A program made the translations under genes and the position numbers. The notes under the pieces were generated by a model that made no database searches, was not told the origin of the DNA, and saw only the letters and a program-made list of their open reading frames with translations. This document shows positions 1,970 through 22,669 of a stretch of 32,089 nucleotides of DNA, piece by piece. This DNA comes from Candidatus Omnitrophota bacterium (lineage in GTDB: Bacteria > Omnitrophota > Gorgyraeia > Duberdicusellales > 4484-171). Each line of letters begins with the position of its first letter. Position 1 is the stretch's first letter. The stretch lies in the NCBI GenBank assembly GCA_021735405.1, contig JAIPHC010000006.1:1-32089 (forward strand), in the 5' to 3' direction.

Positions 1970-3215
1970 TTTAAAAACTGAAAAGTTTTTATCGGCGGAA
2001 AAACTCTACCTACCCCTTTCTCAGCATACCGGAAAACCTTCTAAGGTTTGCGTTCAAGAAAATCAAATAGTTCAAAAAAATCAAATAATCGCTGAAAGCA
2101 ACGGTTTTATTTCAGCCTCACTCCATGCGCCTATAAAAGCAAAAGTTTCTAAGATAAAAAAACATTTTCATCCAAAGTTTGGTAAAACTAAAACTATAGT
2201 TCTATCCGCCCAACCCGAGCACAAGCCCGACGGCCATCCCAACCAAACTGCCGGCTTAGATCAATTTAGAAAAGATCAATTATTAACTGCTATTGCCAAA
2301 GCCGGAATAGTGGGAATGGGGGGAGCAGGATTTCCGGCTCAGGTAAAGTTAAATCCGCCTAAAGGCATCGATACCTTAATAATCAATGGTTGTGAATGTG
2401 AACCATATCTGGCTTCCGATTGCCGCTTAATGATTGAAAACCTCAAAGGAATTTTCAAAGGCATCGAAATAATATCTAAACTGGTTGCTCCCGAAAAAAT
2501 AATATTTGCTGTCGAAGAAAACAAAAAAGAGGCGATAAAAAAAATAAACTTTTTTCTTCATAGAAAAAAAAATAATTCTAAAATAGAATTACGAGTCTTA
2601 AAATCAAGATACCCGCAGGGAGGAGAAAAGCAGTTAATCTATTCTCTAACTAAAAGAAAAATTTCCGGCAAAATGCTTCCCTTTGATCTTGGCTGTATAG
2701 TAAATAATGTAGCAACTTGTTTCGCTGTTTATGAAGCAGTTTATTTTAATCAACCCCTAACCAGGCGCATTGTAACTTTTTGCGGAGACGCTTTGGTTGA
2801 ACCAAAAAACCTCTGGGTGAATATCGGCACTACTTTAGCTGAATTAATTGAAAAAGAAATAATCAAGTTTAAAAAAAATCCAAAAAAAATAATATTCGGG
2901 GGGCCAATGATGGGGGATGCAGTTACTAATTTGGCCAACCCTATTTTAAAAACAACCAGCGGTGTTTTATTTTTAGAAAAATTGCCTAAAAAAGAAGAAG
3001 AATCAGCCTGTATAAGATGCGGCCGTTGCGTAAATTATTGCCCAATAAACCTTATTCCGCTTGAATACGCAAAGATGGTAAAAAAGGAAAAATATCAAGA
3101 GTTAAAAGATTATTACATAAAAGATTGTATTGAATGTGGCTGCTGTAGTTATGTTTGTCCGGCTCAAATACCAATATTGGATTATATAAAATTGGGCAAG
3201 GAAAAGATAAAATGA
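1929..3215 (+). CDS. rnfC: Rnf electron transport complex subunit C
   Basis: LPLSQHTGKPS, GMGGAGFPAQVKL, NGCECEPYL, and two 4Fe-4S motifs (CIRCGRCVNYCP; CIECGCCSYVCP). Overlaps the MFS 3' end by 41 nt. Confidence 0.95.
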   Translation: MMLKAAEYKDPQHNLKTEKFLSAEKLYLPLSQHTGKPSKVCVQENQIVQKNQIIAESNGFISASLHAPIKAKVSKIKKHFHPKFGKTKTIVLSAQPEHKPDGHPNQTAGLDQFRKDQLLTAIAKAGIVGMGGAGFPAQVKLNPPKGIDTLIINGCECEPYLASDCRLMIENLKGIFKGIEIISKLVAPEKIIFAVEENKKEAIKKINFFLHRKKNNSKIELRVLKSRYPQGGEKQLIYSLTKRKISGKMLPFDLGCIVNNVATCFAVYEAVYFNQPLTRRIVTFCGDALVEPKNLWVNIGTTLAELIEKEIIKFKKNPKKIIFGGPMMGDAVTNLANPILKTTSGVLFLEKLPKKEEESACIRCGRCVNYCPINLIPLEYAKMVKKEKYQELKDYYIKDCIECGCCSYVCPAQIPILDYIKLGKEKIK

Positions 3216-4162
3216 CCCCTCAGTTAAAACTAACAGTCAGCGGATCTCCTCACTTAAAAGACAAGGCAAAAACATCTTATATTATGCGGGATGTAATCAT
3301 CGGGCTTCTTCCCGCCGTCGGTGCTGCAATTTATTTTTTTGGTATCTTGGCAGCCATCTTAATTCTCAACTGTGTAGTTACTGCTTTGCTAACTGAATGG
3401 ATTATAAATCGAATCAGAAAACAAAAAAATACTATCTATGATTTTAGCGCGGCAGTTACCGGAATACTGGTAGCCCTGATCCTGCCGCCTTCAATCGCCT
3501 GGTATGGAGCAACAATTGGTGTGGTATTTGCGATATTGGTGGGAAAACATTTATTTGGCGGATTAGGTTCAAATATATTCAATCCTGCTCTTTTAGGCAG
3601 AGCCTTTTTAGCTGCAGCTTATCCAAGAATGCTTACGACTTACACAAAACCGGGTCAATTTGATACAATTACCGAAGCAACTCCTTTGATGCTTCAAAAG
3701 TTCAGCCATAAATTAACGTCTTTAGATAAATTATTTTTAGGAAATGTTTCCGGGAGCTTGGGGGAAACTTCAGCAATTTGTTTGTTAGTTGGAGGGCTTT
3801 ACCTTCTTTTACGCAAAAGCGCCGGCTGGAGGATACCGGTTAGCTTGTTAATTTCTCTAACTTTGGTTGCGACTGCCGGATACTTAATAAACCCAATTCT
3901 GGGAACGCCCGTATTTCATCTTTTAGCCGGAGGATTGCTTTTAGGAACATTTTTTATGGCAACAGACCCAGCCACAACACCTGTAACCGCAAAAGGAAGA
4001 TTTATTTTTGGAGCAACTTGCGGTATTTTAATTATGGTAATAAGATATTTTAGCAACTTACCAGAAGGCGTAATGTATTCAATACTTTTTTGTAACGCGC
4101 TGGTACCTTTAATAAACCGTTACACAAAACCTAAAGCATTTGGCCGAAAGGAGAGGGAATGA
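3212..4162 (+). CDS. rnfD: Rnf electron transport complex subunit D
   Basis: ATGA overlap with rnfC; RnfD/NqrB-like TM protein with GGLGSNIFNPALLGRAF and TDPATTPVT. Track start 3155 is upstream; ATG 3212 (MTPQLKLTVSGSPH) is preferred. Confidence 0.95.
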   Translation: MTPQLKLTVSGSPHLKDKAKTSYIMRDVIIGLLPAVGAAIYFFGILAAILILNCVVTALLTEWIINRIRKQKNTIYDFSAAVTGILVALILPPSIAWYGATIGVVFAILVGKHLFGGLGSNIFNPALLGRAFLAAAYPRMLTTYTKPGQFDTITEATPLMLQKFSHKLTSLDKLFLGNVSGSLGETSAICLLVGGLYLLLRKSAGWRIPVSLLISLTLVATAGYLINPILGTPVFHLLAGGLLLGTFFMATDPATTPVTAKGRFIFGATCGILIMVIRYFSNLPEGVMYSILFCNALVPLINRYTKPKAFGRKERE

Positions 4163-4704
4163 AAGAAGTAATTAAAATTTCTGCTACTTTAACTTTAATT
4201 TGTTTGATTTGCGCATTTTTACTCGCCCTGGCCTACAACACAGCCGAAGGAAAAATAGAAGCAAATCAAAAAAAGGCAATAGAGAATTCGATAAACAAAC
4301 TGGCTCCGGAAGCAACAAGGCAAGATAAAATTAAAATTGGCGGCAAAACTTTATGGAAGCTTTATCGGAATAATGATTTAACCGGCTATGCCGCTATCGC
4401 CTCAGGCCAAGGCTATGGTGGTGAAATTAGGATAATGATAGTAACCGGCCGGAACTTAGAAAAAATAAAAGGAATTGAAATAATTGAATCAAATGAAACT
4501 CCCGGCTTGGGCTCAAAAATTCAAGAAAAAGATTTTAAAAACCAATTTAAAAACCTAGAAATTAGAAAACCGATCAGTTATACAAAAGAAAAACCGGCTA
4601 AACCAAATCAGATTCAAGCAATAACTGGAGCTACGATATCATCAAAATCTGTAGTCGAGATACTAAATAAGGAAATAGAGAAGCTCAGATATAAAATCCA
4701 ATGA
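4159..4704 (+). CDS. rnfG: Rnf electron transport complex subunit G
   Basis: Single N-terminal TM, FMN-binding domain, ETPGLGSKI and QAITGATISS motifs; overlaps rnfD. Confidence 0.95.
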   Translation: MKEVIKISATLTLICLICAFLLALAYNTAEGKIEANQKKAIENSINKLAPEATRQDKIKIGGKTLWKLYRNNDLTGYAAIASGQGYGGEIRIMIVTGRNLEKIKGIEIIESNETPGLGSKIQEKDFKNQFKNLEIRKPISYTKEKPAKPNQIQAITGATISSKSVVEILNKEIEKLRYKIQ

Positions 4705-5291
4705 AAAGACAACAAATCTTAAAAGGCCTTTGGGAACAAAATCCTATTTTTCGCCAGTTGTTAGGCATGTGCCCTACTTTAGCAGTTACAACTACTGCAG
4801 AAAACGGCTTGGCAATGGGTTTAGCGGTAATATTTGTTCTTTTCTTTTCGGAACTTGCTGTAACCTCTATCAAAAAGATAGTACCGCATCAAGTGCGGAT
4901 TGCAGTTTATACAGTAATAATCGCAACCTTTGTAACCATCGTTGATATTTTCCTAAAAGCGCAATTTCCCCAAATAAGTAAAAATTTAGGCCCCTATGTA
5001 CCCCTGATTATCGTAAACTGTATAATATTGGGCAGATGCGAGGCTTTTGCTTCAAAAAATAAACTATCCAACTCTCTTTTAGATGCGCTGGGGATGGGAA
5101 TAGGGTTTTGTTGGGGGCTTTTAGTTTTAGGCTCAATACGAGAGCTCTTAGGCGCAGGCAATATTTTTGGGTTTAAATTGATGCCGGCAGGTTTTAATCC
5201 ACTGGTAGTTATGATTTTACCCGCAGGTGCTTTTTTGGTCTTAGGATTTCTGGTGGCTTTAATGAACAGGGTTGAACAATGGAAAACTTAA
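4701..5291 (+). CDS. rnfE: Rnf electron transport complex subunit E
   Basis: LWEQNPIFRQLLGMCPTLAVTTTAENGLAMG, GRCEAFASKN; RnfE/NqrD family. Confidence 0.96.
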   Translation: MKRQQILKGLWEQNPIFRQLLGMCPTLAVTTTAENGLAMGLAVIFVLFFSELAVTSIKKIVPHQVRIAVYTVIIATFVTIVDIFLKAQFPQISKNLGPYVPLIIVNCIILGRCEAFASKNKLSNSLLDALGMGIGFCWGLLVLGSIRELLGAGNIFGFKLMPAGFNPLVVMILPAGAFLVLGFLVALMNRVEQWKT

Positions 5292-5860
5292 TCTTAATTT
5301 TTATATCAACTATTTTAATCAACAACGTTGTCTTAAGCTATTTTTTAGGGATTTGCCCCTTTCTTGGTGTATCCGGCAAAATGGAATCTGCTTTAGGAAT
5401 GGGTATGGCAGTAACTTTTGTAATGACTTTGGCGACCTCGATTAGTTGGTTAATCTATTATTTAATATTGGAAAGATTCGGTTTATTGTTTTTAGAATAT
5501 ATCGTTTTTATTTTAGTTATTGCCTCGCTTGTCCAAATTGTAGAAATGTTTATCCGGAAATATTCAACAAATCTTTATCAATCCTTAGGTATATACCTTC
5601 CTTTAATTACCAGCAACTGTGCGATTCTAGGAGTAGCTCTCTTTATGGTGGTTAAAGATTATTCCTTTTTAGAAGCTGTAGTTTTTGGTTTCTCAGGCGG
5701 GCTGGGGTTTTCTTTAGTTCTAATAGTTATGGCAGGGATAAGAGAAGAGTTAGAATTTGCTGATATTCCTAAAGTTTTTAAAGGGGCCCCGCTTACCTTG
5801 ATTACTGCCGGTATTTTAGCCCTAATCTTTATGGGATTTTCAGGGCTAGGAGGAGGATAA
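5279..5860 (+). CDS. rnfA: Rnf electron transport complex subunit A
   Basis: NNVVLSYFLGICPFLGVSGKMESALGMGMAVTFVM, LPLITSNCAILGVALF, GIREELEFADIP; RnfA/NqrE family. Confidence 0.96.
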   Translation: MENLILIFISTILINNVVLSYFLGICPFLGVSGKMESALGMGMAVTFVMTLATSISWLIYYLILERFGLLFLEYIVFILVIASLVQIVEMFIRKYSTNLYQSLGIYLPLITSNCAILGVALFMVVKDYSFLEAVVFGFSGGLGFSLVLIVMAGIREELEFADIPKVFKGAPLTLITAGILALIFMGFSGLGGG

Positions 5861-6666
5861 TGGCTCAAGTAATTGCCGCAACCATAGTTTTTGGATTAAT
5901 CGGCTTAGCTTTCTCTTTGCTTTTGTCTTTTCTAAACAGAAAACTGAAAGTACCTGATGATCCTAGAGTAAAAGAAATATTAAATATATTGCCCGGATTA
6001 AATTGCGGAGCTTGTGGCTTTAGTAGTTGCAAAGCCTATGCTCAGGCGATAGTAGAAGATCCGAGTAAAATGAAAGGTTGCCGGCCAGGCGGAGACCAGG
6101 TAAATAAAAAAGTGGCAAAAGCAATCGGAAAAAAAGAAAACCTCAAAAAACAAAAAAAAATGCTAGTTGTTTGCTCTTGCGGAGCCGAGGAAAAAGATAA
6201 AAAAACAACTCATAACTATCAAGGTCTAAAAAATTGCCAATCCGCCCATATTACCGGCGGGGCTATTGACTGTGTTTATGGATGCTTAGGTTTTGGCGAT
6301 TGTCAAGAGGCCTGCCCTGTGGGAGCAATAACCCTTAAGAACAATAAAGTTTATATTGACCAGAAAAAATGTATTCTTTGCGGCAAATGCATAAAAGCCT
6401 GTTCCCGTAACCTTTTTAAGATAATTCCCGCTAAAGAATTGGGAAATTATTTTATTGCCTGCAATAACAAAGACCGGCTCAAAGAGGTAAAGGATGTCTG
6501 CAACCGAGGTTGTATAACTTGCGGGATATGCACAAAAGTCGAAGATTCTCCTTATGAATTAGTTGATAACCTATCTCGAATAAATTATAAAAATATTAAA
6601 AATAAAAAATCTTTAGAAGAGGGTAAAAACAAATGCCCAACAAACTGCATCGACATAATCAATTAA
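5860..6666 (+). CDS. rnfB: Rnf electron transport complex subunit B
   Basis: N-terminal TM, LPGLNCGACGFSSCKAYAQAI cluster, ferredoxin motifs CVYGCLGFGDCQEACP and CILCGKCIKAC. Confidence 0.95.
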   Translation: MAQVIAATIVFGLIGLAFSLLLSFLNRKLKVPDDPRVKEILNILPGLNCGACGFSSCKAYAQAIVEDPSKMKGCRPGGDQVNKKVAKAIGKKENLKKQKKMLVVCSCGAEEKDKKTTHNYQGLKNCQSAHITGGAIDCVYGCLGFGDCQEACPVGAITLKNNKVYIDQKKCILCGKCIKACSRNLFKIIPAKELGNYFIACNNKDRLKEVKDVCNRGCITCGICTKVEDSPYELVDNLSRINYKNIKNKKSLEEGKNKCPTNCIDIIN

Positions 6667-8284: not shown

Positions 8285-9085
8285 TTAATCAAAGAGAGCA
8301 GCCTGGGTAAAAGTGCTTTTTTTACCCGAAGCATCTGCAATTTCAATCTCGATGATTGTCTCCGGCCGGCCATAGATTTTCAAATATTTTTTAGCTATTT
8401 CTTTTGTTTTGTTAAAAGGATTGGGAATGCTTTCATCCTTTTTATTTATTTTAATATCGAAAATTATCCCTAGCTTGCCTTCTTGATAATAAGATTGAAT
8501 TCTTTCAACCTTTACCTTCTTAGAATAAGGGATAAACAGATTGTTTAATCTTTGCCGAATCAAATATCCGATAAAATCTCCCAAGCTAATATTGTATTTG
8601 GCAATATGCTCACCCTGCTTATCGCCTAAAGCTTTTTTATTTTCAAACGATAAAAAGACCATCCTTTGGTTAAATTCTTCTAAAGATATAAGGTTCATCC
8701 GAAGCTTTATCAAATCCCGGACAAAACCAATCCGATAAACATCGATGCCTTTATCTTTTATATCTGACAAAACAAAGCAGTAGAATTTAGGCGGGTTATC
8801 CATATTTAAAAATGTCCTTTGGAGAGCGAGAAAAATCCGGCGGGTGTTTTCAGAAAAGCTATCTCTGGGCTTTCCTTTTATATCTAAAATTTCCCCAAAA
8901 GGAACGTAAACCCATAATGTATTTTCAACCAACCAGGCTTTAGCCTCTAAGTTAAATTCTTCTTCACAAAGCCTTTCGATAGTTTGCTCAATATTTTTTT
9001 GAGAATAAGTTGGAGTTGTTTTGCAGGCTGGATGCAGCAAAAGAAAAAAACTAACTAGAACTATCTTGAGCTCTTTCTTTGCCAT
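8285..9085 (-). CDS. Hypothetical secreted/envelope protein, possibly a lipoprotein
   Basis: MAKKELKIVLVSFFLLLHPACKTTP signal-like N-terminus (weak lipobox); no family recognised. Start overlaps the 3' end of the ftsH-like gene by ~35 nt. Track start is 9115. Confidence 0.6.
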   Translation of the reverse strand: MAKKELKIVLVSFFLLLHPACKTTPTYSQKNIEQTIERLCEEEFNLEAKAWLVENTLWVYVPFGEILDIKGKPRDSFSENTRRIFLALQRTFLNMDNPPKFYCFVLSDIKDKGIDVYRIGFVRDLIKLRMNLISLEEFNQRMVFLSFENKKALGDKQGEHIAKYNISLGDFIGYLIRQRLNNLFIPYSKKVKVERIQSYYQEGKLGIIFDIKINKKDESIPNPFNKTKEIAKKYLKIYGRPETIIEIEIADASGKKSTFTQAALFD

Positions 9086-10724
9086 ATTTTTTAAATATAT
9101 CAACAATTTCATCATATTCGAGCTCTTCTTTCTTTAATAACTCTTGAGCAAAATGTTCAAATAGTTCTTTTTCGTTATCTAAAACATCCCGGACTTCTTT
9201 AAGGCAGCTGCCGAGAATTTTTTGCACATCTTCATCTAACTTTTCTTTTATTTTTCCTGAAGCATCAAATGCATTCTGGCTGTAAGGGTTCCCGCTTTTA
9301 AAGTTACCAATTACCCCGGATGAACCCATGCCCCACATATAAACCATTTTTTGAGCTGTATCTAAGGCGTTTTTAAAATCACCGGCTACACCGGCGCCGG
9401 TTGTTCCAAATTTTAAATTTTCTGCGGCATAGCTTGCCAGAGAAACTTTAATCTCGGATAAGAAAAAATCTTTCATTGGGATATGGATTTCTTCGCGGGG
9501 AACAGGATGAGCATAGCCTAAGAATCCCCGCCGAGGAATAATTGTTGCTTTGACCACATCAGTTGTGGGGTGGAGGAGATAAGCGATTATTGCATGTCCG
9601 GCTTCATGATAAGCTGTCCAAACCTTTTCTTTTTCGCTTAGCTGTAAACCCGACTTTAAGCCAAATAAAACTCTATCGTAGGCATCCGAGATATCTTTCA
9701 TCGTAATTGATTCACGCTTGCTTCTTACTGCAACCAAAGATGCCTCTCTGATCATATTGGCAATATCTGCGGGCGAAAAAAATACTGTTTTTCTCGCCAA
9801 CACCCCGGCATTTAGTTTACGGTCACAGCCAACTTTATTTAGGTAATATTTAATAATTTCTTTCCGGTCATCAAGGTTAGGGTACTCAACATAAATTTTG
9901 CGGTCAAAACGGCCGGCTCGCATAAGAGCAGGGTCAAATTCAGATTCGGAAATATTAGTTGCTGCAATAACCACTATATTGTTTTCTGTTTGACGCAAGC
10001 CGTCTAGTTCGGTAAGAAGTTGATTAATAGTTGCGTTATGAGAAATACCGGCTCCCATACCGCTTACCCCAACTCGCTTACGGGCGATAGTATCAATTTC
10101 ATCTATGAATATAAGACAGCCGCCATGAAGGTCAGCCAAGACTCTAGCTTCCTTAAATAAACTTTTGATTTTAGCGGTACCTGTACCAACAAACATCCCG
10201 ACAAATTCACTTCCCGTTGCAGAAAGAAAAGGGAGCCCGGTTTCTGTGGCAATAGCTTTAGCAAGATAAGTTTTTCCGCATCCAGGCGGGCCAATCATCA
10301 TAATTCCTTTTATAATTTTTCCGCCGATTTGTTTTATTTGAGCCCTGTCTTTAAGCAGTTTAATAACCTCAAGGACTTCGCCTTTTACATGTTTCATTCC
10401 GATTACATCAGACCACTTTACATTTACATGCTCTGGTTTTATTCTTTTCTGGCCGATTTTATTCATTCCGCCGCCAAACATAAACCAATAATGAAACCCC
10501 ATATAGATGCTGGCAAACACAAAAGCGGTAATTACACTTAGAAAAAGCTGCAAGGGAATTCCGGCTAAGGTCATCTTGCGATAAAAAGCTTCCAGGGTAA
10601 GAAAGTGCTTAATACCTACCACAACAAGAAGGATAACTATTATAAGGATGACTAAAGCTACCGCTATAAGTAGTATTTTAATCCAATGAAGCTTAAGCAG
10701 TTTTTTAATTTTATTCACATTCAT
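9051..10724 (-). CDS. FtsH-like membrane AAA+ zinc metalloprotease with a very short inter-TM loop
   Basis: Walker A GPPGCGKT, Walker B LIFIDEID, pore loop EFVGMFVG, SRH DPALMRAGRFDR, HEAGH zinc motif, TTGAGVAGDF third-ligand region; two TMs separated by ~17 residues. Confidence 0.92.
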   Translation of the reverse strand: MNVNKIKKLLKLHWIKILLIAVALVILIIVILLVVVGIKHFLTLEAFYRKMTLAGIPLQLFLSVITAFVFASIYMGFHYWFMFGGGMNKIGQKRIKPEHVNVKWSDVIGMKHVKGEVLEVIKLLKDRAQIKQIGGKIIKGIMMIGPPGCGKTYLAKAIATETGLPFLSATGSEFVGMFVGTGTAKIKSLFKEARVLADLHGGCLIFIDEIDTIARKRVGVSGMGAGISHNATINQLLTELDGLRQTENNIVVIAATNISESEFDPALMRAGRFDRKIYVEYPNLDDRKEIIKYYLNKVGCDRKLNAGVLARKTVFFSPADIANMIREASLVAVRSKRESITMKDISDAYDRVLFGLKSGLQLSEKEKVWTAYHEAGHAIIAYLLHPTTDVVKATIIPRRGFLGYAHPVPREEIHIPMKDFFLSEIKVSLASYAAENLKFGTTGAGVAGDFKNALDTAQKMVYMWGMGSSGVIGNFKSGNPYSQNAFDASGKIKEKLDEDVQKILGSCLKEVRDVLDNEKELFEHFAQELLKKEELEYDEIVDIFKKYGKERAQDSSS

Positions 10725-10806
10725 AGTTAAAGTAAAGATAGCATAAATTTGCTATTTTGTCTATCTTTTCTAACTTTTAACTGGCAGATATACAAGTATC
10801 ATAGAG

Positions 10807-10951
10807 TTTAAATTCGAAGCACGAAATCCGAATATTCGAAACAATTTTCAAATTTTCAAATGTTTAAATGACCAAAACTGTTATTTTTAAAATTCAGTCA
10901 TTAGAGAATTCGGATTTATTTCGAATTTCGATATTCGAATTTCGAATTTGA
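10807..10951. repeat. Dispersed palindromic repeat, copy B
   Basis: aattcgaagcacgaaatccgaatattcgaaacaattttcaaattttcaaatgtttaaatgaccaaaactgtt...gaattcggatttatttcgaatttcgatattcgaatttcgaatttg; matches copy A. Confidence 0.85.
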
Positions 10952-10982
10952 GCATTACACTTTTGACATCCGAATAAAACCC

Positions 10983-11010
10983 TTGCCAATGAACTTATCT
11001 GTGATACAAT
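10983..11010 (+). promoter_or_regulatory. Candidate sigma70-type promoter for hflKC
   Basis: TTGCCA (10983-10988), 16 nt spacer, TACAAT (11005-11010); hflK ATG at 11020. Confidence 0.55.
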
Positions 11011-11019
11011 CTTTACGTT

Positions 11020-12018
11020 ATGGATTTTGAAGCAAAATCACCAGATGAAATAATTAACCAGTTTAAGAATAAGTTTAAATGGAAGGGGCCAAAGTTTCTC
11101 TCTGGGCCAACTTTAATTATTGCTATAGTTTTGGTAATTATTTTAGTCAGTAACATTTTTTATACCATTTCGCCCAATGAGGTGGGGGTTGTGCTGCGTT
11201 TTGGAAAATATGTGCGGACAACTCAACCCGGGCTTCACTTTAAAATACCCTTTGTCGAAGCTGTTACTCCCATTAAAACAAAGTATGTTTACAAACAAGA
11301 GTTTGGCTATAGAACCGCCCAGCCGGGAATAAGAACCCGTTACAGCCAGCGTTCCTACAGCAGCGAATCTTTGATGCTTACCGGAGATTTAAATGTATTA
11401 GACCTTGAATGGATTGTTCAATTCAGAGTCAAAGACCCTTATAAAATCCTTTATAATATCCGCAACCCAGAAAGAACTTTACGGGATATATCCGAAGCCG
11501 TAATGCGCCAAGTTGTTGGTGACTACACCTTTACCGAAGTCCTCACCTTAAAAAGAATTGAGGTAAATAACAAAGTTCAAAAAAAGCTTCAGGAAATTCT
11601 TAACGACTATGGAGCCGGAATTCATATCGTAACCGTAAAATTACAGGATGTTAATCCACCTGACCCGGTAAAGCCGGCCTTTAACGAAGTAAATGAAGCT
11701 AAACAGCAGAGAGAAACTTTAATTAACCAGGCCTGGAAATATTACAACCAAAAAATACCCCAAGCGAGAGGGAAAGCAAAACAAAAAATTCAAGAAGCAG
11801 AAGGATATGGCCTTGAAGTAGTAAACAATGCTCAAGGTGACGCAAAAAGGTTTTTACTCTTATATAACGAATATGCGCAAGCAAAAAATATTACTAAAAA
11901 ACGCATTTACCTTGATCATTTGAGTGATGTTTTACAAAAAGCGGGTAAAAAATATATCGTTGATCCAAGCGAAAAAGGAATTTTACCAATGTTGAGGTTA
12001 GATCATGAAACAAAGTAA
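11020..12018 (+). CDS. hflK: HflK, SPFH-family FtsH modulator
   Basis: N-terminal TM, PNEVGVVLRFGKYVRTTQPGLHFKIPF, VQFRVKDP, VNPPDPVKPAFNEVNEAKQQRE. Confidence 0.93.
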   Translation: MDFEAKSPDEIINQFKNKFKWKGPKFLSGPTLIIAIVLVIILVSNIFYTISPNEVGVVLRFGKYVRTTQPGLHFKIPFVEAVTPIKTKYVYKQEFGYRTAQPGIRTRYSQRSYSSESLMLTGDLNVLDLEWIVQFRVKDPYKILYNIRNPERTLRDISEAVMRQVVGDYTFTEVLTLKRIEVNNKVQKKLQEILNDYGAGIHIVTVKLQDVNPPDPVKPAFNEVNEAKQQRETLINQAWKYYNQKIPQARGKAKQKIQEAEGYGLEVVNNAQGDAKRFLLLYNEYAQAKNITKKRIYLDHLSDVLQKAGKKYIVDPSEKGILPMLRLDHETK

Positions 12019-12964
12019 CGCCAAAGGCTTAATCGCTTTAATTATAGTTATTTTACTTATTTTAGTCGGAAACCCTTTTTATACCTTAAAAGAAGGCAAG
12101 CAAGCAGTAATCACTCAATTTGGCGATCCCGTCGGTAATCCGATCACAAAAGCCGGCCTGCATTTAAAGATACCTTTTATTCAAAAAGTCAATGTTTTCG
12201 AAGAAAGAGTATTAGAGTGGGACGGTGACCCGAATCAAATTCCTACCAAAGATAAACGCTATATCAAGATAGACACAACTGCCAGATGGCGGATAATCGA
12301 TGCTCTAAAGTTTTTTCAATCAGTCTATGATGAAACCGGAGCTCATGCCCGTCTTGACGATGTAATCGATGCGGCAGTAAGGGATGTGATAACTTCTCAT
12401 AATTTAGTTGAAATCGTAAGGAGTTCAAATCGAATTTTAGAAAATTTTGACAAAATAAAAGAAGAAGGGAAGCTCTTTATCGAGGAGAGTCAAATCGAAG
12501 AGGTAAAAAACGGAAGAAATGACTTAAGAAAAATGATTATATCTAACGCTAAAACCGGACTGCGTTCTCAATTCGGGATAAAACTGCTTGATGTAAGAGT
12601 AAAGCGCCTAAACTATGTGGAAGAAGTCCAGCGCAAAGTTTATGACCGAATGATTTCTGAACGCAAAAGAGCCGCCGAAGAATACCGTTCCGAAGGCCGG
12701 GGAGCCCAAGCTGAGATTACCGGAAAAACCGATAAGGAACTTAAACTGATTCAATCAGAAGCTTATAAAAAAGCTCAAGAAATAAAAGGAAAAGCCGATG
12801 CGAGAGCAACCAAAATTTATGCAGATGCTTACAGTAAAGATCCTGACTTTTACTCGTTTCTGCAAACGCTTAAAACTTATAAAAATAGTGTCGATAGTGA
12901 CACTGCCTTGATTTTAACTACTGACGCAGAATATTTCAAATATTTACAACAATCTTCTCCTTAA
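12005..12964 (+). CDS. hflC: HflC, SPFH-family FtsH modulator
   Basis: N-terminal TM, EGKQAVITQFGDPVG...AGLHLKIPFIQKV, RMISERKRAAEEYRSEGRGAQAEI; overlaps hflK. Confidence 0.94.
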   Translation: MKQSNAKGLIALIIVILLILVGNPFYTLKEGKQAVITQFGDPVGNPITKAGLHLKIPFIQKVNVFEERVLEWDGDPNQIPTKDKRYIKIDTTARWRIIDALKFFQSVYDETGAHARLDDVIDAAVRDVITSHNLVEIVRSSNRILENFDKIKEEGKLFIEESQIEEVKNGRNDLRKMIISNAKTGLRSQFGIKLLDVRVKRLNYVEEVQRKVYDRMISERKRAAEEYRSEGRGAQAEITGKTDKELKLIQSEAYKKAQEIKGKADARATKIYADAYSKDPDFYSFLQTLKTYKNSVDSDTALILTTDAEYFKYLQQSSP

Positions 12965-13908: not shown

Positions 13909-15198
13909 ATGCGTAATTCTTTTATTTATCTAATCGTTTTAGCAGTTTGTTTTAGTTTTGCCGGCTGTAATAATTCTCAAAAAAACAGCGGGCCTCAGGT
14001 AACTATTTGGCATTGGATGTCGGACCGGCAAGATGCTTTCGAACAGTTAGCCCAAAAGTATAAGCGGGAGAAAAAAATTACTGTTCATTTTGAACTTTTC
14101 CCTCATAGCGCTTACACTCAAAAAATAAATGCCGCCGAAGCCGCAAACGATCTACCTGATTTATTCGGAATATTAGGCGAAAAACGAGTTTTGGCTTCTT
14201 TTGCCAAAGAAAAAAAAATCGAGGACCTAACTCCTTACATGGAAAAACAGAATTCTAACTGGAAAGAAAGGTTTATCGAGATTTGTTTAGCTGTAAATAG
14301 TTTCAAAAAAGATAATATTTACGCGGTAAAACCGGGTATTTACGGTGTGCCTATCGACGCAATGAGCATTCAATTTCTTTACAATAAAGATTTACTGGAA
14401 AGGGAAGGGTTTGCTTCCGATTCGCCGCCTGAAACTTTTCAGGATTTTTTATCTATTGCTAAAAGCGCTAAAGATGAAAAAGATACCTACGGCTTTGCTT
14501 CCGGCTGGGGAGAAACCTGGCTGATTTATTGCTTTACCACAAATTATGCCTTTGATTTAATGGGAGAAGAGAAATTTCTTAACACAATCAAAGGAGAAGT
14601 GCCCTATACCGACCCGGATTGGATAAAAGTTTTTTCTCTCTTTAAGGATTTAAGAGAAGCCGGCATATTGGCTCCGGGCATCATCACCATGAACAATAAA
14701 GAAGCTGAGCAAATTTTTGCCACAAATAGAACTTTTTTTACCTTTAACGGAAGCTGGGGGGTCAACACTTATCAACAAATCAACCCCCAACTAAAATACG
14801 CCACTATGCCGCCTCCTAAGGCTAATCAAAAGCACCCTCCTGCTATTTGGGCCGGAGCCGGAACTTCATTTGTGGTAAATTCACAATCTGAAAATAAAAA
14901 AGAGTCGATTGATTTTCTAAAATGGCTAACCGAAGCCAGACAACAAGTTTTTTTAATCAAAGAGACCAACAACCTGCCTTCAATTAAAGGGCTTAAAAAA
15001 GATACCCCGGATAACATGAGCAGCTTTTTAAGCAACCAACAATATTTTACCCATCCCCGGCTTTGGCGGATAAATGAAAATTCAAGAGTGGTAGAAGCCA
15101 TAAACAGGGGAGTGCAGAATATTGTAATCGGGGCAAAGACACCGGAAGAAGTGGCAAAAGAGGTTGCAAAGACTAAAGAAAGATATAAAAACGAATAA
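13909..15198 (+). CDS. Extracellular carbohydrate-binding lipoprotein of an ABC transporter (family 1 solute-binding)
   Basis: Signal with lipobox-like FAGC; VTIWHWMSD, YTQKINAAEAANDLPDLF, VPIDAMSIQFLYNKDLLEREGF, FNGSWGV. Confidence 0.9.
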   Translation: MRNSFIYLIVLAVCFSFAGCNNSQKNSGPQVTIWHWMSDRQDAFEQLAQKYKREKKITVHFELFPHSAYTQKINAAEAANDLPDLFGILGEKRVLASFAKEKKIEDLTPYMEKQNSNWKERFIEICLAVNSFKKDNIYAVKPGIYGVPIDAMSIQFLYNKDLLEREGFASDSPPETFQDFLSIAKSAKDEKDTYGFASGWGETWLIYCFTTNYAFDLMGEEKFLNTIKGEVPYTDPDWIKVFSLFKDLREAGILAPGIITMNNKEAEQIFATNRTFFTFNGSWGVNTYQQINPQLKYATMPPPKANQKHPPAIWAGAGTSFVVNSQSENKKESIDFLKWLTEARQQVFLIKETNNLPSIKGLKKDTPDNMSSFLSNQQYFTHPRLWRINENSRVVEAINRGVQNIVIGAKTPEEVAKEVAKTKERYKNE

Positions 15199-15203
15199 AA
15201 AGA

Positions 15204-16283
15204 ATGAACAAAAAAGAACAACTCATAAATTTTTCTTTTGTATTTCCGGCTTTAGCGATTTTTTCTTTTTTCTACATCATACCTTTTTTTTATACTTTTT
15301 GGCTTTCTTTGCACAAAGCTTCTTCTACCAATGTTTTGGATTTAAATTTTGTCGGGGTCCAGAATTTCAAAGATATCTTTTCTTTTCAAATCTTTGCCGC
15401 TTTAGCCGGAATTTTGGGGATTTCTTTAATAGTTTTTGCTTTCAAAAATAAATTTAAAAAACTATCCTTAAATCATAAAAAAAGTTTAGCTAAAACGCTC
15501 CAAACTATTACCGTAGTTGCCGGAGGAGCGCTGCTTATTTATTCAATCGGAGCTTTTTTTAATATATCCAAAGAAGCTGTTTCTTTTAGCCCTGACCTGC
15601 AGTGGTGGAACTCGGTAAAGCGTTCATTTTATATTACTTTTTGGGGCTTAACTTTTCAAAATTGCCTGGCTTTTCTCTTAGCTCTGGGGGTAGACCGGGC
15701 CGCAAGAACCGGACAGTTCTATCGGGTAGTATTTTTTCTTCTTCCTGTTTTAGGAGAAGTAATCATCGGGCTTCTCCTGCGAATTATGCTTTCTCATTAC
15801 CCGGGTGTTTTTAACCACCTTCTTGAAAGTGTTGGTTTGGGGCAATGGGCTCAAAACTGGCTGGGAAAAGATATGGCTTTAACCACTTTGGCGGTAAGCC
15901 ACTGCTGGCGCGGTTTTGGTTATGGTTTTATCATCCTGCTTGCCGGTTTACAAACTATACCGGAGCAATTATACGAAGCAGCGAGAATCGATGGAGCCAA
16001 CGCTCTGCATCGATTCACAAAAATTACTATCCCGATGTTGGTGCCAATTATATTTTTGGTAATAATTTTAACGATTCTCGGAACAGTACAGATTATCGGG
16101 CTTCCCATGGCTTTAACCCGCGGCGGGCCGGCGGGAAGAACCACGGTCTCTGTATTAAGAATATTTGAAGATTTAAACAATAGCCATGTAGGCTATGCTT
16201 CTGCCGAAGGGTTGATTTTAGGATTAATTTTAGTAACATTATCTTTTAGCTTGCTTAAACTATCAAAAAAAATAAAAAGTTAA
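15204..16283 (+). CDS. Carbohydrate ABC transporter permease, MalF/UgpA type with a membrane insertion
   Basis: EAA loop EQLYEAARIDGANALHRFTKITIPML; TM1 then a ~70 aa insertion containing two extra hydrophobic segments. Confidence 0.88.
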   Translation: MNKKEQLINFSFVFPALAIFSFFYIIPFFYTFWLSLHKASSTNVLDLNFVGVQNFKDIFSFQIFAALAGILGISLIVFAFKNKFKKLSLNHKKSLAKTLQTITVVAGGALLIYSIGAFFNISKEAVSFSPDLQWWNSVKRSFYITFWGLTFQNCLAFLLALGVDRAARTGQFYRVVFFLLPVLGEVIIGLLLRIMLSHYPGVFNHLLESVGLGQWAQNWLGKDMALTTLAVSHCWRGFGYGFIILLAGLQTIPEQLYEAARIDGANALHRFTKITIPMLVPIIFLVIILTILGTVQIIGLPMALTRGGPAGRTTVSVLRIFEDLNNSHVGYASAEGLILGLILVTLSFSLLKLSKKIKS

Positions 16284-17129
16284 ATGCCGGAACAAATTAA
16301 AAAAACACTTTATCTGTTAGTTATCCACACTCTCTTAATCACCGTTGCTTTAAGCTGCATTTTCCCTTTTGTTTGGATGATCAACTCTTCCTTAAAACCA
16401 AATAGCGAATTTATCCAAGACCATGGTTTTGAGCTTCCCGATACAATAAATCTTCGAAACTATATCTATACTTTCACCAAAGGCAATCTCGGTACTTACT
16501 TTTTAAACAGTATTCTTTATACTTTTCTTACTGTAATCGCAATTGTTATTATTTCTTCATTAGCCGGCTACGGAATATCACGTTTGCAATTCCGGGGTAA
16601 AAACTTTATCTTTTATATGATTTTAGCCGCGATGATGATACCGATTCCCGCAGCTTTTGTCCCTCTCTATGTTCTCTTAAAAAGCGTCGGCCTCCTTAAT
16701 ACAAGAATCGGTTATATTTTAGCTATGGTTAACGTAGGGCTTTCTTTAAGCATTTATCTTTACAAAACTTTCTTTGACCAGCTTCCTAAAGACCTGGAGG
16801 AATCGGCGCGAATCGATGGCTGCGGAAAGTTAAGAATTTGGTGGCATGTAATGTTTCCTTTAGCAAAGCCGGCAACCGGAGTCGTGGTAATTTTTAATGC
16901 TCTAAATGTCTGGAATGAACTAATATTAGCATTAGTTATATTAAGCAATAAAGGCCTTATGCCTTTACAGGTTGGTTTATTAAAGTTTTCCCAAAGCAGT
17001 GTGGGCTTAACTCAATATACCACACTGATGGCTGCTCTTACAGTGGCTGCCTTGCCAATTATAATAATTTACCTTATAATGCAAAAACACATAATTAAGG
17101 GAATGACAGCCGGGGCTACCGTCGGCTAA
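16284..17129 (+). CDS. Carbohydrate ABC transporter permease, MalG/UgpE type
   Basis: EAA loop KDLEESARIDGCGKLRIWWHVMFPLAKPATG; MINSSLKPNSEF; MalG-like C-terminus. Confidence 0.93.
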   Translation: MPEQIKKTLYLLVIHTLLITVALSCIFPFVWMINSSLKPNSEFIQDHGFELPDTINLRNYIYTFTKGNLGTYFLNSILYTFLTVIAIVIISSLAGYGISRLQFRGKNFIFYMILAAMMIPIPAAFVPLYVLLKSVGLLNTRIGYILAMVNVGLSLSIYLYKTFFDQLPKDLEESARIDGCGKLRIWWHVMFPLAKPATGVVVIFNALNVWNELILALVILSNKGLMPLQVGLLKFSQSSVGLTQYTTLMAALTVAALPIIIIYLIMQKHIIKGMTAGATVG

Positions 17130-17141
17130 CAACCGCTGGAA

Positions 17142-17266
17142 GAAAGGACGACAGACGAAGGACGAATACCAAAATGAACACAATAATTACTAATAAAAAT
17201 AAAAAACAAATGCTAATTGCTAAAAATAAATCATCCATCGTCTATCGTCTATCATCTATCGTCCCT
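17142..17266. repeat. CGTCTAT-type short tandem repeat with opposing ACGA-rich arm (inverted repeat pair)
   Basis: gaaaggacgacagacgaaggacga (17142-17165) versus tcatccatcgtctatcgtctatcatctatcgtcc (17231-17264); the second arm is largely the reverse complement of the first. Confidence 0.65.
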
Positions 17267-19519
17267 CGGTTGATGATTACCTTTATTGCCCTCTGCCTTC
17301 TGCCCACGTTATGTTACGGGCAGGATTCGGGCCAATTTGTAAATAAAGGCTGGTCAGCCCTGGGTAAACGCAACTTTGATAAAGTACATCAAATTACCGA
17401 TAAATGTATCCAAACCTATCAAGAAAAAGCAAAAAAACAAGCCAGCAAATTAAATAGCTTTCCGGCTAAAGGCGAAGAAGATCAATATGAGACCATGAAC
17501 AATGCGGCTACTTGTTATTTTATAAAAGGTGAAGCCTACATGCGCGAAGAAAAGAAAGAAAAAGCTATAGAAACTTTTCAAAAAGTTGTCCAGGATTATC
17601 CTTATGCCCAAAGTTTTGACCCGCGCGGCTGGTATTGGTCAATAAAGGAAAAAGCCGAGAGCTCAATCAACAAACTGATAACCGGAAAAATAGAAGAGCA
17701 AGAGCAAGAAGAGGTAGTTATCACCAAGGTAAAACTTTATGATCCCGGCCAAAGCCTGCCGATAGATTATCAAAAATTCGGTAAATTTAAAAACGCCGGA
17801 ACAGCAGATTATGAATATGTTATCGAAAAACCAATCGAATTGGCTGAGGCCGCGGGCGAAGGAATTTATCCTAACACAAGTTCGGTTAAGTTTGACCCCC
17901 GCTATCAAGAAATAAAAGATAAACTTTATAAGATTGACCATTGGGAAGTACTAAATTCCCGTAATTTGAATGCTGCTTTTTATAAATGGATAAAAGCTCC
18001 CGAACCAGCCGGAATACGCCAATTCTATATCGCAGAGATCTTAGAAAAAAGCGGATTAATCGAACATGCAATAAAAGCTTATTATGCTGTTTTAGTCCAT
18101 TTTCCCAAAACTTACGGCTGGACCTACTGGAATACCCCTTGGTATGTAGGAAACGCTGCGCTTTATCGAATAAAATACCTTCTCCGGAAACATCCTGAAT
18201 TAAATTTAAAATTAGAAAATGCTGAGATTAAAATAGATAATGGTTTTAATAATAATATCCGCGATGATCTTTTTATTGTTAACCCGGGAAGGCTGGTGAA
18301 AAGATCATTTTGGAAAAAGATATTTTCTAAAAAATGTAATTCGAAAAAAAGAAAATTAGGCGAAATCGTAAAAACTTCCGGCAAAACCATAAAATTAGCC
18401 CAATATAAAAACGGTGATTGGCAGTTATTTGTAGAAGGAAAACCCTTTATCCTAAAAGCGATAACTTATGATCCAACCCGAGTCGGTGAATCTCCTGATG
18501 AAGGGACTTTAGAAGACTGGACAACTCAAGACGTAAACAATAATGGCTTAATCGACGGGCCTTATGAAGCCTGGGTCGATAAAAATAAGAATAATAAAAA
18601 AGACAAAAACGAAAAAAAGATAGGCGACTTTCAATTAATGAAAAATATGGGGGTAAACGCAATCAGGCTTTACCACCAGCCCTTTATGAGGAATAAAAAA
18701 ATTATTGGACAAATGTATGAAAAATATGGTATATATACTTTAATAGGCAACTTTTTGGGTAAATACACATTAGGAAGTGGAGCTGACTGGGAAGAGGGCA
18801 CCGATTACGACAACCCCGCCCATCAAAAAAATATGCTTAAAAGCGTAAAAGAAATGGTAGAAACCTGGAAAGACGAGGATGCTATCTTAATTTGGATTTT
18901 GGGTAATGAAAATGTCTACGGCTTAGGCTGTAACGCCGACAAAAAACCAGCCAGTTTTTTTAAATTTGCAAATAAAGCTGCAAAGTTAATAAAAAAACTC
19001 GACCCTAAAAAACGGCCGGTTGCTATCGCTTCGGGAGACAGCCTCTACCTTGACCTTTTTGCCAAATATTGCCCGGATATCGATATATTCGGAACAAATT
19101 CCTATCGGGGTAAATATGGTTTTTTAGGGTTATTTGAAGACATAAAGAGAATTTCCGGTAAACCGGCAATAATTACCGAATATGGAGCGCCGTCTTACGG
19201 TAGAGGATATACGAACAAAGAAGCTCAAAGCTTTCAAGCTGAATACCACAACGGTTGCTGGTACGACCTAAAATGTAATTCAGCCGGTTACGGAGCCGGT
19301 AACGTCTTAGGCGGAGTTGTTTTTGAATGGCTTGATGAATGGTGGAAAGCATATGAACCGCACTACCATGATAAAAAAGGGCTTTTTAGCGGGCCTTTTT
19401 TAGACGGATATATGTACGAAGAATGGTTAGGGGTAATGAGCCAGGGAGATGGCAGTAAATCACCGTTTTTAAGACAGCCAAAAAAATCTTATTTTAAATA
19501 TAAAGAACTATGGAACTAA
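17174..19519 (+). CDS. Secreted protein with N-terminal TPR-like region and C-terminal clan GH-A-like glycoside hydrolase domain
   Basis: AEAYMREEKKEKAIETFQKVVQDYP-type TPR segment (read as GEAYMREEKKEKAIETFQKVVQDYP); LIWILGNENVYG (acid/base) and AIITEYGAPSYG (nucleophile); FEWLDEWWK. Start uncertain: signal-peptide-like MITFIALCLLPTLCYG begins at 17273. Confidence 0.75.
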   Translation: MNTIITNKNKKQMLIAKNKSSIVYRLSSIVPRLMITFIALCLLPTLCYGQDSGQFVNKGWSALGKRNFDKVHQITDKCIQTYQEKAKKQASKLNSFPAKGEEDQYETMNNAATCYFIKGEAYMREEKKEKAIETFQKVVQDYPYAQSFDPRGWYWSIKEKAESSINKLITGKIEEQEQEEVVITKVKLYDPGQSLPIDYQKFGKFKNAGTADYEYVIEKPIELAEAAGEGIYPNTSSVKFDPRYQEIKDKLYKIDHWEVLNSRNLNAAFYKWIKAPEPAGIRQFYIAEILEKSGLIEHAIKAYYAVLVHFPKTYGWTYWNTPWYVGNAALYRIKYLLRKHPELNLKLENAEIKIDNGFNNNIRDDLFIVNPGRLVKRSFWKKIFSKKCNSKKRKLGEIVKTSGKTIKLAQYKNGDWQLFVEGKPFILKAITYDPTRVGESPDEGTLEDWTTQDVNNNGLIDGPYEAWVDKNKNNKKDKNEKKIGDFQLMKNMGVNAIRLYHQPFMRNKKIIGQMYEKYGIYTLIGNFLGKYTLGSGADWEEGTDYDNPAHQKNMLKSVKEMVETWKDEDAILIWILGNENVYGLGCNADKKPASFFKFANKAAKLIKKLDPKKRPVAIASGDSLYLDLFAKYCPDIDIFGTNSYRGKYGFLGLFEDIKRISGKPAIITEYGAPSYGRGYTNKEAQSFQAEYHNGCWYDLKCNSAGYGAGNVLGGVVFEWLDEWWKAYEPHYHDKKGLFSGPFLDGYMYEEWLGVMSQGDGSKSPFLRQPKKSYFKYKELWN

Positions 19520-19563
19520 CTGGTTAACCAATAACCAATTAACCAAAACAAAAGGAGGTTTAG

Positions 19564-20748
19564 ATGAAAAGGATAAGTTTACTTACACTATTAGGAGCAT
19601 TTTTGATTCTAATATTATCGGCGGGAGCGCAAAATGCAGCTTGTGAAACAGAAAATTTCTATATTTACGCCGATAAAAATTCACCTAAAAATCATTTTAT
19701 CCCTTCCGGTTGGATGGGAGACACCAATGATTTAGCTTTTAACGATCAGGCTACCGAAGAAGCTTTATCCGGCGGAACATCGATTAAATTAACTTACGAC
19801 CCGGAAAAAGGACAAGGACAGGGTTGGGCCGGAATTTATTGGCAATCAGCTCAAAACAATTGGGGCACCCGGGATTCCGGTTATGATTTATCTAAATACA
19901 ATAAATTAGTTTTTTCAGCTAAAGGAGCCGAAGGGGGAGAAGTAATAACCGGAGTAAAAGTAGGTGGCTTAACTACCATCGGGTCAACCGGAGAACCAGT
20001 CCCTTACCCTGATACTACAAATACAGAATCAGGGCCGATTAGAGTTACCGATAGCTGGCAGGAATATCAAGTAAATTTAGCCGATCAAGACCTCTCTTAT
20101 ATAAACGGAGGGCTTGCAATAATTTTTAACTCGGATCATGCAGAGGAAGGGCAATCTATCTATATCGACGATATCCGCTACAGCTACGATCCTGATTTAA
20201 CTGCCGAGGATGATTCTACGAATTTCCCTTTCTATGTTTACGCCGACAGCAGCTCTTTAGATAATCATTTTATTCCTTCTGGCTGGATGCCCGCTACAGC
20301 GGCGAAGGACATCCGCTTAAATACCAACTGGAAAAACTTACCCTTTAGCGGTAGTACTTGTATCAGGGTTGAGTATGAAAACAACTCTGGAACCCGCTGG
20401 GCCGGAATTTACTGGCAGCAGCCAGCTAATAATTGGGGTACGGTGCCTAAAGCCGGCTATGACCTCCAAGGAGCCCAAAAGCTTACCTTCTGGGCCAGAG
20501 GCGACCAAGGCGGAGAAGTCATCTATGAATTTAAGATGGGTGGGTTATCCAGCGGCCAATATCCTGATTCTGACAGCGCAAGTATAGGCCCGATCGAGCT
20601 TTCAAAAGAATGGGAAAAGTATGAGATTGACTTACGCGGCAGGGACCTTTCTTATGTAATCGGCGGCTTCGCATGGGCAACCAACATTGACGTTAACGAT
20701 CCCGAAGGTATAGTTTTCTATATCGACGAAATTAAGTACGAAAAATAA
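19564..20748 (+). CDS. Secreted protein with two tandem homologous beta-rich (carbohydrate-binding-like) domains
   Basis: Signal peptide; domain 1 YIYADKNSPKNHFIPSGWMG...GWAGIYWQSAQNNWGT...SIYIDDIRYSYD and domain 2 YVYADSSSLDNHFIPSGWMP...RWAGIYWQQPANNWGT...VFYIDEIKYEK. Confidence 0.8.
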   Translation: MKRISLLTLLGAFLILILSAGAQNAACETENFYIYADKNSPKNHFIPSGWMGDTNDLAFNDQATEEALSGGTSIKLTYDPEKGQGQGWAGIYWQSAQNNWGTRDSGYDLSKYNKLVFSAKGAEGGEVITGVKVGGLTTIGSTGEPVPYPDTTNTESGPIRVTDSWQEYQVNLADQDLSYINGGLAIIFNSDHAEEGQSIYIDDIRYSYDPDLTAEDDSTNFPFYVYADSSSLDNHFIPSGWMPATAAKDIRLNTNWKNLPFSGSTCIRVEYENNSGTRWAGIYWQQPANNWGTVPKAGYDLQGAQKLTFWARGDQGGEVIYEFKMGGLSSGQYPDSDSASIGPIELSKEWEKYEIDLRGRDLSYVIGGFAWATNIDVNDPEGIVFYIDEIKYEK

Positions 20749-20757
20749 AACAAAGGA

Positions 20758-22023
20758 GTGAGAATTATTAAGCCAAAAATAAAATATACAAAGTGGATCT
20801 TCTTTGCGCTTTTTCTTGGTTTCTGCTCGCTTAACAATAGTTATGCTCAAGCAAAAAGGGTAGAAATCAAAAAAAATGAGCAGGGAGGTTACACTTTGTA
20901 TATTGAGCAAGAACCTTTTTTCTCAAAAGGCGTAATTTACAATCCAACCCCAATCGGAAAAGGACCCGGCTACAATTTTTTTACCCACCGCCCAAAAGCC
21001 TGGACTCAAGTTGACGGAAAACTTATGGCTGATTTAGGAATAAATGCGGTAAGAGTTTATTCAACCGGAGACGATATCGAAGCAATGAAAGAGTTTATCA
21101 GCGGCCTTTATCAAAAGTATGGGATTTATACCGCAGTCAGCGACTGGCTTGGCCTCTGGGACCAGCCGCGGGCAAATTATGCTGACCCTGATTTTCGCAA
21201 AGCAACCAAAAAAAGAATATTAAGGATTGTTAATGAGCTAAAAGACCAAGAAGGGCTTTTGCTCTGGATTTTAGGCAATGAAAACAATTATACTTTTTCT
21301 GGAAAAATCGGGTTTTGGACTTCTCCTGAAATAGAAAAAATTGATAAAATATATGAAAAACAACAAAAAAGAGCCGAAATTTACTATTCTTTTATTGATG
21401 AACTGGCGGCTGAGATTAAAGAAGCAGACCCTAACCACCCGGTTGCCTTAGGCAATGGTGAATCCAGTTTTCTTGATATCGCTGCGGAAAATTGCCCAAA
21501 CATAGATCTATTAGCGATTATAATTTATCGCGGCAGAACTTTTGGAAATATTTTCGAAAACATTCGCAACATTTTTGATAAACCGATTATTCTTTCCGAG
21601 TTCGGCTGTGATTCTTACGACGCCTACCGAAAAAAAGAAAATCAAAATATTCAATCCGATTTTATTCTGGACCAATGGAAAAGAATTTACAACAATAGCA
21701 CTATAAGCGGTAATCAAACCGGCAATGTCTTAGGCGGATTCCTTTTTGAGTGGACCGATGAATGGTGGAAATTTAACGAAGGTCATCCGGAGGGCTGGTC
21801 AGAGCACAACCCGCAAGCCGGCTGGTCAAACGGATCTTACTATTATGACATTCGAGCCAAGCACAACCTAAACATGAACGAAGAATGGTTTGGTATCGTA
21901 TCTTTACAAAAACGCCAAGAGAATGGCTTAAATAAAAGGATGCCGAAAAAGGCTTATTTTGACTTAAAAGAATATTTTCAAAAAATAGAAGAAAGAAGAG
22001 TTTTACCTGCCGAAAATAAATAG
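20758..22023 (+). CDS. Secreted clan GH-A-like glycoside hydrolase, paralogue of the 17174-19519 C-terminal domain
   Basis: Signal peptide; LLWILGNENNYTF, PIILSEFGCDSYD, FEWTDEWWKFNEG. Start codon uncertain (GTG overlaps the SD). Confidence 0.75.
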   Translation: MRIIKPKIKYTKWIFFALFLGFCSLNNSYAQAKRVEIKKNEQGGYTLYIEQEPFFSKGVIYNPTPIGKGPGYNFFTHRPKAWTQVDGKLMADLGINAVRVYSTGDDIEAMKEFISGLYQKYGIYTAVSDWLGLWDQPRANYADPDFRKATKKRILRIVNELKDQEGLLLWILGNENNYTFSGKIGFWTSPEIEKIDKIYEKQQKRAEIYYSFIDELAAEIKEADPNHPVALGNGESSFLDIAAENCPNIDLLAIIIYRGRTFGNIFENIRNIFDKPIILSEFGCDSYDAYRKKENQNIQSDFILDQWKRIYNNSTISGNQTGNVLGGFLFEWTDEWWKFNEGHPEGWSEHNPQAGWSNGSYYYDIRAKHNLNMNEEWFGIVSLQKRQENGLNKRMPKKAYFDLKEYFQKIEERRVLPAENK

Positions 22024-22033
22024 CTTGCCGTAG

Positions 22034-22669
22034 ATGAATAAACTCTGGTTAAATTCTTTATTATTATCAATTCTAGCCCATTTCTTAGTTTTTTCTTTTT
22101 TTTTCTTTTCTCCTTTTTCGCCAACAATAAAAAAAACCAACCAAGAAATTAAAAAAATCGAAATTATCCCCGAAGAACCGGAAAAAAAAATAAAAACTCC
22201 TCAGCAGCAAGAAAAAAATTTAGGGAAAAAAGAACCTCTTCCTTATAAAGAAAATATTATCGATAAACTGTTAAATTTAGGCAAATCAAACCCCTCTCTG
22301 GATAAAATAAAACCTATTCAGGATCAAACCGGCGATATACTTTTATCAAACTTAGTCAAGAAAGAGAACTTGCAAAATAATTCTGCTTATATGAATTATT
22401 ACCGGATGATCCGTGAAAAAATAAGAAAAAAAGCTTATCAGCGCTATAGAGGCCAAAATCGGGGTAAAGTTTACTTAAACTTTCAAGTTGGCAAAAGTGG
22501 AGCTCTCCAAGCGATAAAAGTAGGGAAACAATCTATAAAAAATTTAAACCTTAAAAAAATCGCCCTTAACAGCGTCAAAGATTCTGCCCCTTTTCCGCCG
22601 TTTCCAAAAGAACTAAAAAACTATCCCCGGCTTCAATTTAATATATCTATTTATTTCAAAAATGATTAA
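22034..22669 (+). CDS. TonB-family C-terminal domain protein
   Basis: N-terminal TM, Lys/Pro/Glu-rich spacer, GKVYLNFQVGKSGALQAIKVGKQS...PFPPFPKEL TonB-type C-terminus. Confidence 0.8.
   Translation: MNKLWLNSLLLSILAHFLVFSFFFFSPFSPTIKKTNQEIKKIEIIPEEPEKKIKTPQQQEKNLGKKEPLPYKENIIDKLLNLGKSNPSLDKIKPIQDQTGDILLSNLVKKENLQNNSAYMNYYRMIREKIRKKAYQRYRGQNRGKVYLNFQVGKSGALQAIKVGKQSIKNLNLKKIALNSVKDSAPFPPFPKELKNYPRLQFNISIYFKND

Follow-up and report, generated by a model that had tools for sequence, protein, structure and literature searches.

The locus described here raises the question of whether two related glycosidases, the secreted protein encoded between them and a sugar importer encoded upstream form a single glycan-processing system, and if so, which glycan it serves. 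The genes lie in a window (the whole stretch of DNA analysed, 32,089 nucleotides) from a Candidatus Omnitrophota MAG of 861 kb that is 77% complete; the last gene of the cassette is 90% identical in the Candidatus Omnitrophota MAG Tobar13.5m-G63, which is among the nearest named relatives. We consider it probable that 13909-22023 is a locus of a non-Sus kind through which Candidatus Omnitrophota utilise beta-1,3-glucan (laminari-oligosaccharides). This reading is based directly on which genes are present and in what order, on catalytic residues and similarity of fold, and on the co-occurrence and linkage of a phosphorylase.

The three open reading frames picked out by an earlier, sequence-only reading are real (the last three in Table 1). 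That reading placed them after an ABC sugar importer, which is borne out by SBP_bac_1/8 and two BPD_transp_1 matches in Pfam, but it left outside the cassette the importer genes (13909-17129), although these are part of one unit with the other three. The six genes are separated by only 5, 0, 44, 44 and 9 bases. Since promoter and terminator scans yielded about as many hits overall as shuffled sequences (31 versus 27.1 and 11 versus 12.4, respectively), the limits of the operon were set by gene spacing and synteny. The start codon of the TPR-linked enzyme is uncertain, with further in-frame ATGs at codons 13 and 34.

Table 1. Genes of the six-gene cassette, in window coordinates.
Feature	Position	Strand	Evidence
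CUT1-type sugar ABC importer SBP	13909..15198	+	PF13416 113.6 bits, PF01547 106.6 bits
ABC importer permease, MalF/UgpA-like	15204..16283	+	PF00528 48.4 bits; class-wide synteny
ABC importer permease, MalG/UgpE-like	16284..17129	+	PF00528 66.9 bits; class-wide synteny
TPR + clan GH-A enzyme, predicted secreted, 781 aa	17174..19519	+	TPR_6; Glyco_hydro_2_C 55.6 bits
Two-domain jelly-roll, CBM-like protein, predicted secreted, putative beta-glucan binder	19564..20748	+	AF2, Foldseek
Second clan GH-A enzyme, predicted secreted, 421 aa	20758..22023	+	Glu pair; PDB best match GH158

Several other features were observed in the window. Genes for RnfC, RnfD and an RnfB-like Fe-S protein form one run (1929-6666), which, as far as can be read from the sequence, would be fitting for a fermentative or acetogenic metabolism. 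At 8285-12964, hflK and hflC adjoin a divergent short FtsH-like AAA/M41 protease (557 aa, 9051-10724, minus strand), and the single match in an Rfam scan is a tRNA (573-644, RF00005, 64.8 bits). Directly 3′ of the cassette lies a gene for a TonB/TolA-like protein (22034-22669; TIGR01352, 28.1 bits against a cut-off of 27.1), found at that place in the window's family only (9 of 81 loci); it is possibly a link to outer-membrane uptake, or a mere neighbour.

Loss of synteny in relatives had been named beforehand as a possible refutation of a conserved glycan-processing cassette. Synteny turned out to be very strong: the TPR-linked enzyme, the binding protein and the stand-alone enzyme are ordered alike in 68 of the 72 distinct loci that have 3.5 kb or more of upstream sequence, and all six genes are ordered alike in 50 of the 60 that have 7.5 kb or more. 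The SBP is the first cassette gene in 50/60 eligible loci. Of the 37 genomes of the window's family, 36 have a match to the last gene; class-wide, where the counts take in either enzyme, 196 of 293 genomes have one (179 at an E value of 1e-30 or better). In many families the operon is extended, by genes for a TPR protein of about 540 aa (44/81 loci), ROK (47/81), a coiled-coil protein (43/81) and LacI (38/81); in the window's own family neither ROK nor LacI adjoins the cassette. Inserts consist of a GPH-type MFS_2 sugar transporter (14/81) or a TPR protein with a weak porin match (14/81). One locus of family f57 (L145) carries the whole set together with a GH94 gene, and the binding domain is found outside the class as well (f57 and f59). 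Two contigs labelled Bacteroidales and Planctomycetales (L065 and L123) hold close relatives (61% and 49%, respectively) and are probably misassigned Omnitrophota bins.

The cassette is not of uniform composition. The sampled loci of families f28, f35, f39, f40, f43 and f54 lack the stand-alone enzyme and encode a single-domain binding protein; next to the TPR-linked enzyme they have a separate protein with two copies of the TPR module. The absence of the stand-alone enzyme from some families defines the constant core as the TPR-linked enzyme, the binding domain and the importer, and the last gene of the window is a lineage-specific addition. The TPR module itself, about 120 aa long (17174-17690 in the window), recurs free-standing in two copies, e.g., at L138:10234-11136. 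An ORF of 280-340 aa in the f28, f35, f39 and f43 loci was considered as a third glycosidase and rejected, as its match, found twice over, is confined to the TPR module (residues ~52-171). Fusions also occur: at L021:8076-10832 the stand-alone enzyme is joined to another domain in a protein of 918 aa, and single ORFs of 857 and 1302 aa (G216:C160 and G180:C59) contain two to three enzyme units.

The two enzymes had been proposed to be tandem paralogues. Paralogy is evident from BLASTP, in which residues 401-778 of the TPR-linked enzyme align with residues 30-405 of the second enzyme (31% identity, 177 bits, E 4e-53), but a local tandem copy does not agree with the tree. Among 43 cassette sequences, TPR-linked and stand-alone enzymes form two groups (support 78 and 95), for each of which one label change suffices, and the stand-alone enzyme of the window falls into its own clade (SH-aLRT 95). 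This separation points to an old duplication rather than a local one. The N-terminal TPR-like region claimed for one enzyme is likewise found: the TPR module spans residues ~52-171 (PF13174, 27.0 bits against a cut-off of 26.3), the AF2 model (pLDDT 85.2) is helical from ~52 to 340, and the catalytic domain occupies residues ~398-780.

For both enzymes, GH158 is the best match in PDB searches with single sequences or profiles; the profile search with the TPR-linked enzyme gives 9oro_A (2.6e-14) and 6pal_A (3.9e-13) as best hits. Foldseek with its model also places GH158 at the top, followed by GH2 glucuronidases and GH72 beta-1,3-glucanosyltransferases. The predicted catalytic residues are Glu579 (acid/base) and Glu669 (nucleophile) in the TPR-linked enzyme and Glu175 and Glu281, respectively, in the second enzyme. 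In the profile alignment these glutamates, which lie in GNEN and TEYG motifs, correspond to 6pal chain residues 115 and 198, i.e., Glu137 and Glu220 after a numbering offset of 22, which are the catalytic residues of BuGH158 (PMC7157763). They follow barrel strands 4 and 7, as is the rule in clan GH-A, and the pair is unchanged in 41 orthologues of the TPR-linked enzyme and 39 of the second enzyme.

Identity to GH158 is about 20% for both enzymes (E 1e-12 to 1e-14), and Pfam models of GH2 and GH72 also score above their cut-offs. These Pfam matches are weak and at clan level alone (GH2 barrel, GH72): PF03198 (GH72) reaches 26.5 and 28.9 bits against a cut-off of 25.9, and GH72 ranks below GH158 in the structure search. 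A GH2 beta-galactosidase or glucuronidase was rejected, as the match is confined to the TIM barrel and lies far below the NCBIfam cut-offs, and the jelly-roll domains of GH2 are absent. A search of the window's own genome with PF12876 (cellulase-like) gave zero matches and was uninformative. The AF2 model has no C-terminal Ig-like domain of the BuGH158 kind: past the last barrel strand (711-716) there is no beta-sandwich, and the chain from 716 to residue 781 consists of helices and a single short strand. Both proteins are clan GH-A enzymes related to GH158, and present evidence does not suffice to place them in that family.

The description of the middle protein as a secreted two-domain protein was also correct. 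It has a signal peptide and two domains (residues ~32-207 and ~222-394) that are 46% identical to each other, modelled by AF2 as two all-beta units (beta-sandwiches; mean pLDDT 91.8). In Foldseek the model matches a tandem CBM22 (4xup, 7.5e-12), SGBP-B (7kwb) and CBM30 (1wmx_A, TMt 0.69), and sequence matches of its domains to CBM30 and CBM22 are weak (E 0.05). As modelled, the protein thus resembles CBM22, Bacteroides SGBP-B and CBM30, which bind beta-glycan or surface glycan, and the likeness is too loose to name a ligand.

The set of CUT1 importer components is complete, comprising the SBP, two permeases and a MalK/UgpC-type ATPase. CUT1 systems commonly use an ATPase encoded elsewhere. The single TOBE_2 ATPase in the genome (L153:5387-6493; UgpC, 465.7 bits against a cut-off of 432) is unlinked to the cassette; it would be shared and would power the importer from there. 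The presence of an SBP indicates that the direction of transport is import. Attachment varies: in a simple motif count, 41 of 58 SBPs and 21 of 83 stand-alone enzymes have a lipobox-like signal. No SusC/SusD-like cluster recurs among the neighbours of the 81 loci, and ABC permeases occupy the place of the SusC/SusD pair.

We then addressed the identity of the substrate, which the sequence-only reading had held could not be assigned. The window's genome encodes a GH94 protein (L152:5838-8222) that matches the laminaribiose phosphorylase 6GGY of Paenibacillus over its full length (645 bits, versus 58 bits for the best cellobiose phosphorylase), which places its match in the laminaribiose rather than the cellobiose branch. 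Homologues of this phosphorylase are found in 129 of 293 genomes of the class, i.e., in 120 of 179 cassette-positive genomes versus 9 of 114 others, giving an odds ratio of 24 that ignores kinship. In the window's own family and in other sampled families, the phosphorylase gene lies elsewhere in the genome than the cassette. In families f39 and f43 it shares a gene run with the cassette in 10 of the 11 genomes examined (L138, L159-L166 and L178, but not L167), where it is located upstream of the SBP gene or, in L159, beside the TPR-linked enzyme; the L138 protein scores 827 bits against 6GGY. A beta-1,3-disaccharide phosphorylase is directly linked genetically to the importer and enzymes in these two families. 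From this in-locus laminaribiose phosphorylase in related families, together with the similarity of the enzymes to GH158 and GH72, the substrate can be inferred to be beta-1,3-glucan or laminari-oligosaccharides.

Other neighbours suggest a different linkage. A GH94 gene of the cellobiose-phosphorylase type (508 bits to 3qde) adjoins 7 of the 81 loci as well as L139 and L145, which means that the substrate may be, additionally or instead, a beta-1,4- or mixed-linkage glucan. A like uptake locus with such a glucan (cello-oligosaccharides) as main substrate would also accommodate GH116 in 5 of the 81 loci, the CBM30/CBM22 likeness of the two-domain protein, and a GH158 crystal soaked with a mixed-linkage oligosaccharide. 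We regard it as unlikely, given that the phosphorylase in the window's genome and inside the f39 and f43 loci is of the laminaribiose type and that the enzymes resemble the beta-1,3-acting families GH158 and GH72. A role outside nutrition seems more improbable still. In such a role, GH-A transglycosylases or hydrolases on a periplasmic TPR scaffold (cf. Pga, Pel and Bcs) would modify envelope or exopolysaccharide, with the ABC transporter recycling fragments. The TPR and glycosidase architecture, the similarity to the glucanosyltransferase family GH72, the PilZ proteins upstream in 33 of 81 loci, the TPR-porin-like proteins mentioned above and the near-universal presence of the locus in small genomes would all suit it. 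However, no glycosyltransferase or synthase cluster recurs among the neighbours, and an importer, a kinase, a repressor and a disaccharide phosphorylase suit catabolism.

For utilisation of beta-1,3-glucan, which we favour, the following route can be proposed. The two-domain protein would bind beta-glucan outside the cytoplasm, where the two GH-A enzymes, exported in secreted or membrane-attached form and one of them on a TPR scaffold module, would cut it to short oligosaccharides. The SBP would hand these to the two permeases, with import driven by the unlinked, shared UgpC/MalK-type ATPase, and a cytoplasmic GH94 laminaribiose phosphorylase would supply glycolysis with glucose-1-phosphate and glucose; in some other lineages a GH94 of the cellobiose-phosphorylase type may take the cytoplasmic step. 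In this route we infer export past the signal sequences, linkage specificity, hydrolysis over transglycosylation and the direction of flow. More tentatively, and with the odds somewhat against it, the enzymes could found a new beta-1,3-glucan-active family of clan GH-A and the two-domain protein a new CBM family, and both might form with the TPR module a cell-bound complex for the core carbon acquisition of the class.

Omnitrophota are widespread, very small, uncultured bacteria, and beta-1,3-glucan is a major glucan of algae and fungi. Should the enzymes be beta-1,3-glucanases, much of the phylum could itself process this glucan, which would offer a specific substrate for growth trials and a new enzyme family for characterisation. 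The locus points to a likely core food source of a major uncultured phylum, and this is directly testable. The main text of the Nature Microbiology survey of Omnitrophota covers sugar transport, with no glycosidases, CAZy families or glucans (PMC10066038). Williams et al. reported that Omnitrophota MAGs from Ace Lake encode ABC sugar transporters and phosphorolytic enzymes, found enzymes for initial polysaccharide depolymerisation absent from all MAGs, and concluded dependence on other microbes (PMC8542988). The locus is present in two of the Ace Lake MAGs, 3300035698_1005 (Ca. Susulua stagnicola, L066) and 3300035698_1934 (Ca. Gygaella obscura, L099), and the claim of missing depolymerising enzymes needs re-testing.

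The sequence-only reading had singled out the cassette as a candidate for an undescribed system. This holds for the proteins, as our literature search found no described locus with them and the enzyme branch, the TPR fusion and the binding protein are undescribed; the type of system, an ABC importer with a secreted beta-glucanase and an intracellular GH94, is already known. The Blautia producta locus for mixed-linkage beta-glucan (BpGH16, ABC transporter and BpGH94; PMC10318527) follows the same principle of an exported endo-glucanase, SBP-dependent ABC import, an intracellular GH94 phosphorylase and a regulator. It differs in its GH16 endo-enzyme, its GH94 being a cellodextrin phosphorylase, its Gram-positive host, and the lack of a TPR protein and of a comparable two-domain binding protein. 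The beta(1,3)-glucan locus of Bacteroides uniformis (BuGH158 and SGBPs; PMC7157763) shares the predicted substrate, a GH158-related GH-A beta-1,3-glucanase (predicted in Omnitrophota) and a multidomain beta-sandwich glycan-binding protein (putative in Omnitrophota). The Omnitrophota locus has an ABC importer instead of the SusC/SusD pair, two GH-A paralogues of which one carries the TPR fusion, and phosphorolysis in the cell where Bacteroides has GH3. At the level of single proteins, GH158 (BuGH158, 6PAL; GH158(Pro), 9ORO/9P26) is the closest match in both sequence and structure, with the catalytic pair in common; the low identity, the missing Ig-like domain and the N-terminal TPR module of one paralogue set the Omnitrophota enzymes apart. 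The GH94 protein of the window's genome is a full-length homologue of the Paenibacillus laminaribiose phosphorylase, with the same specificity predicted.
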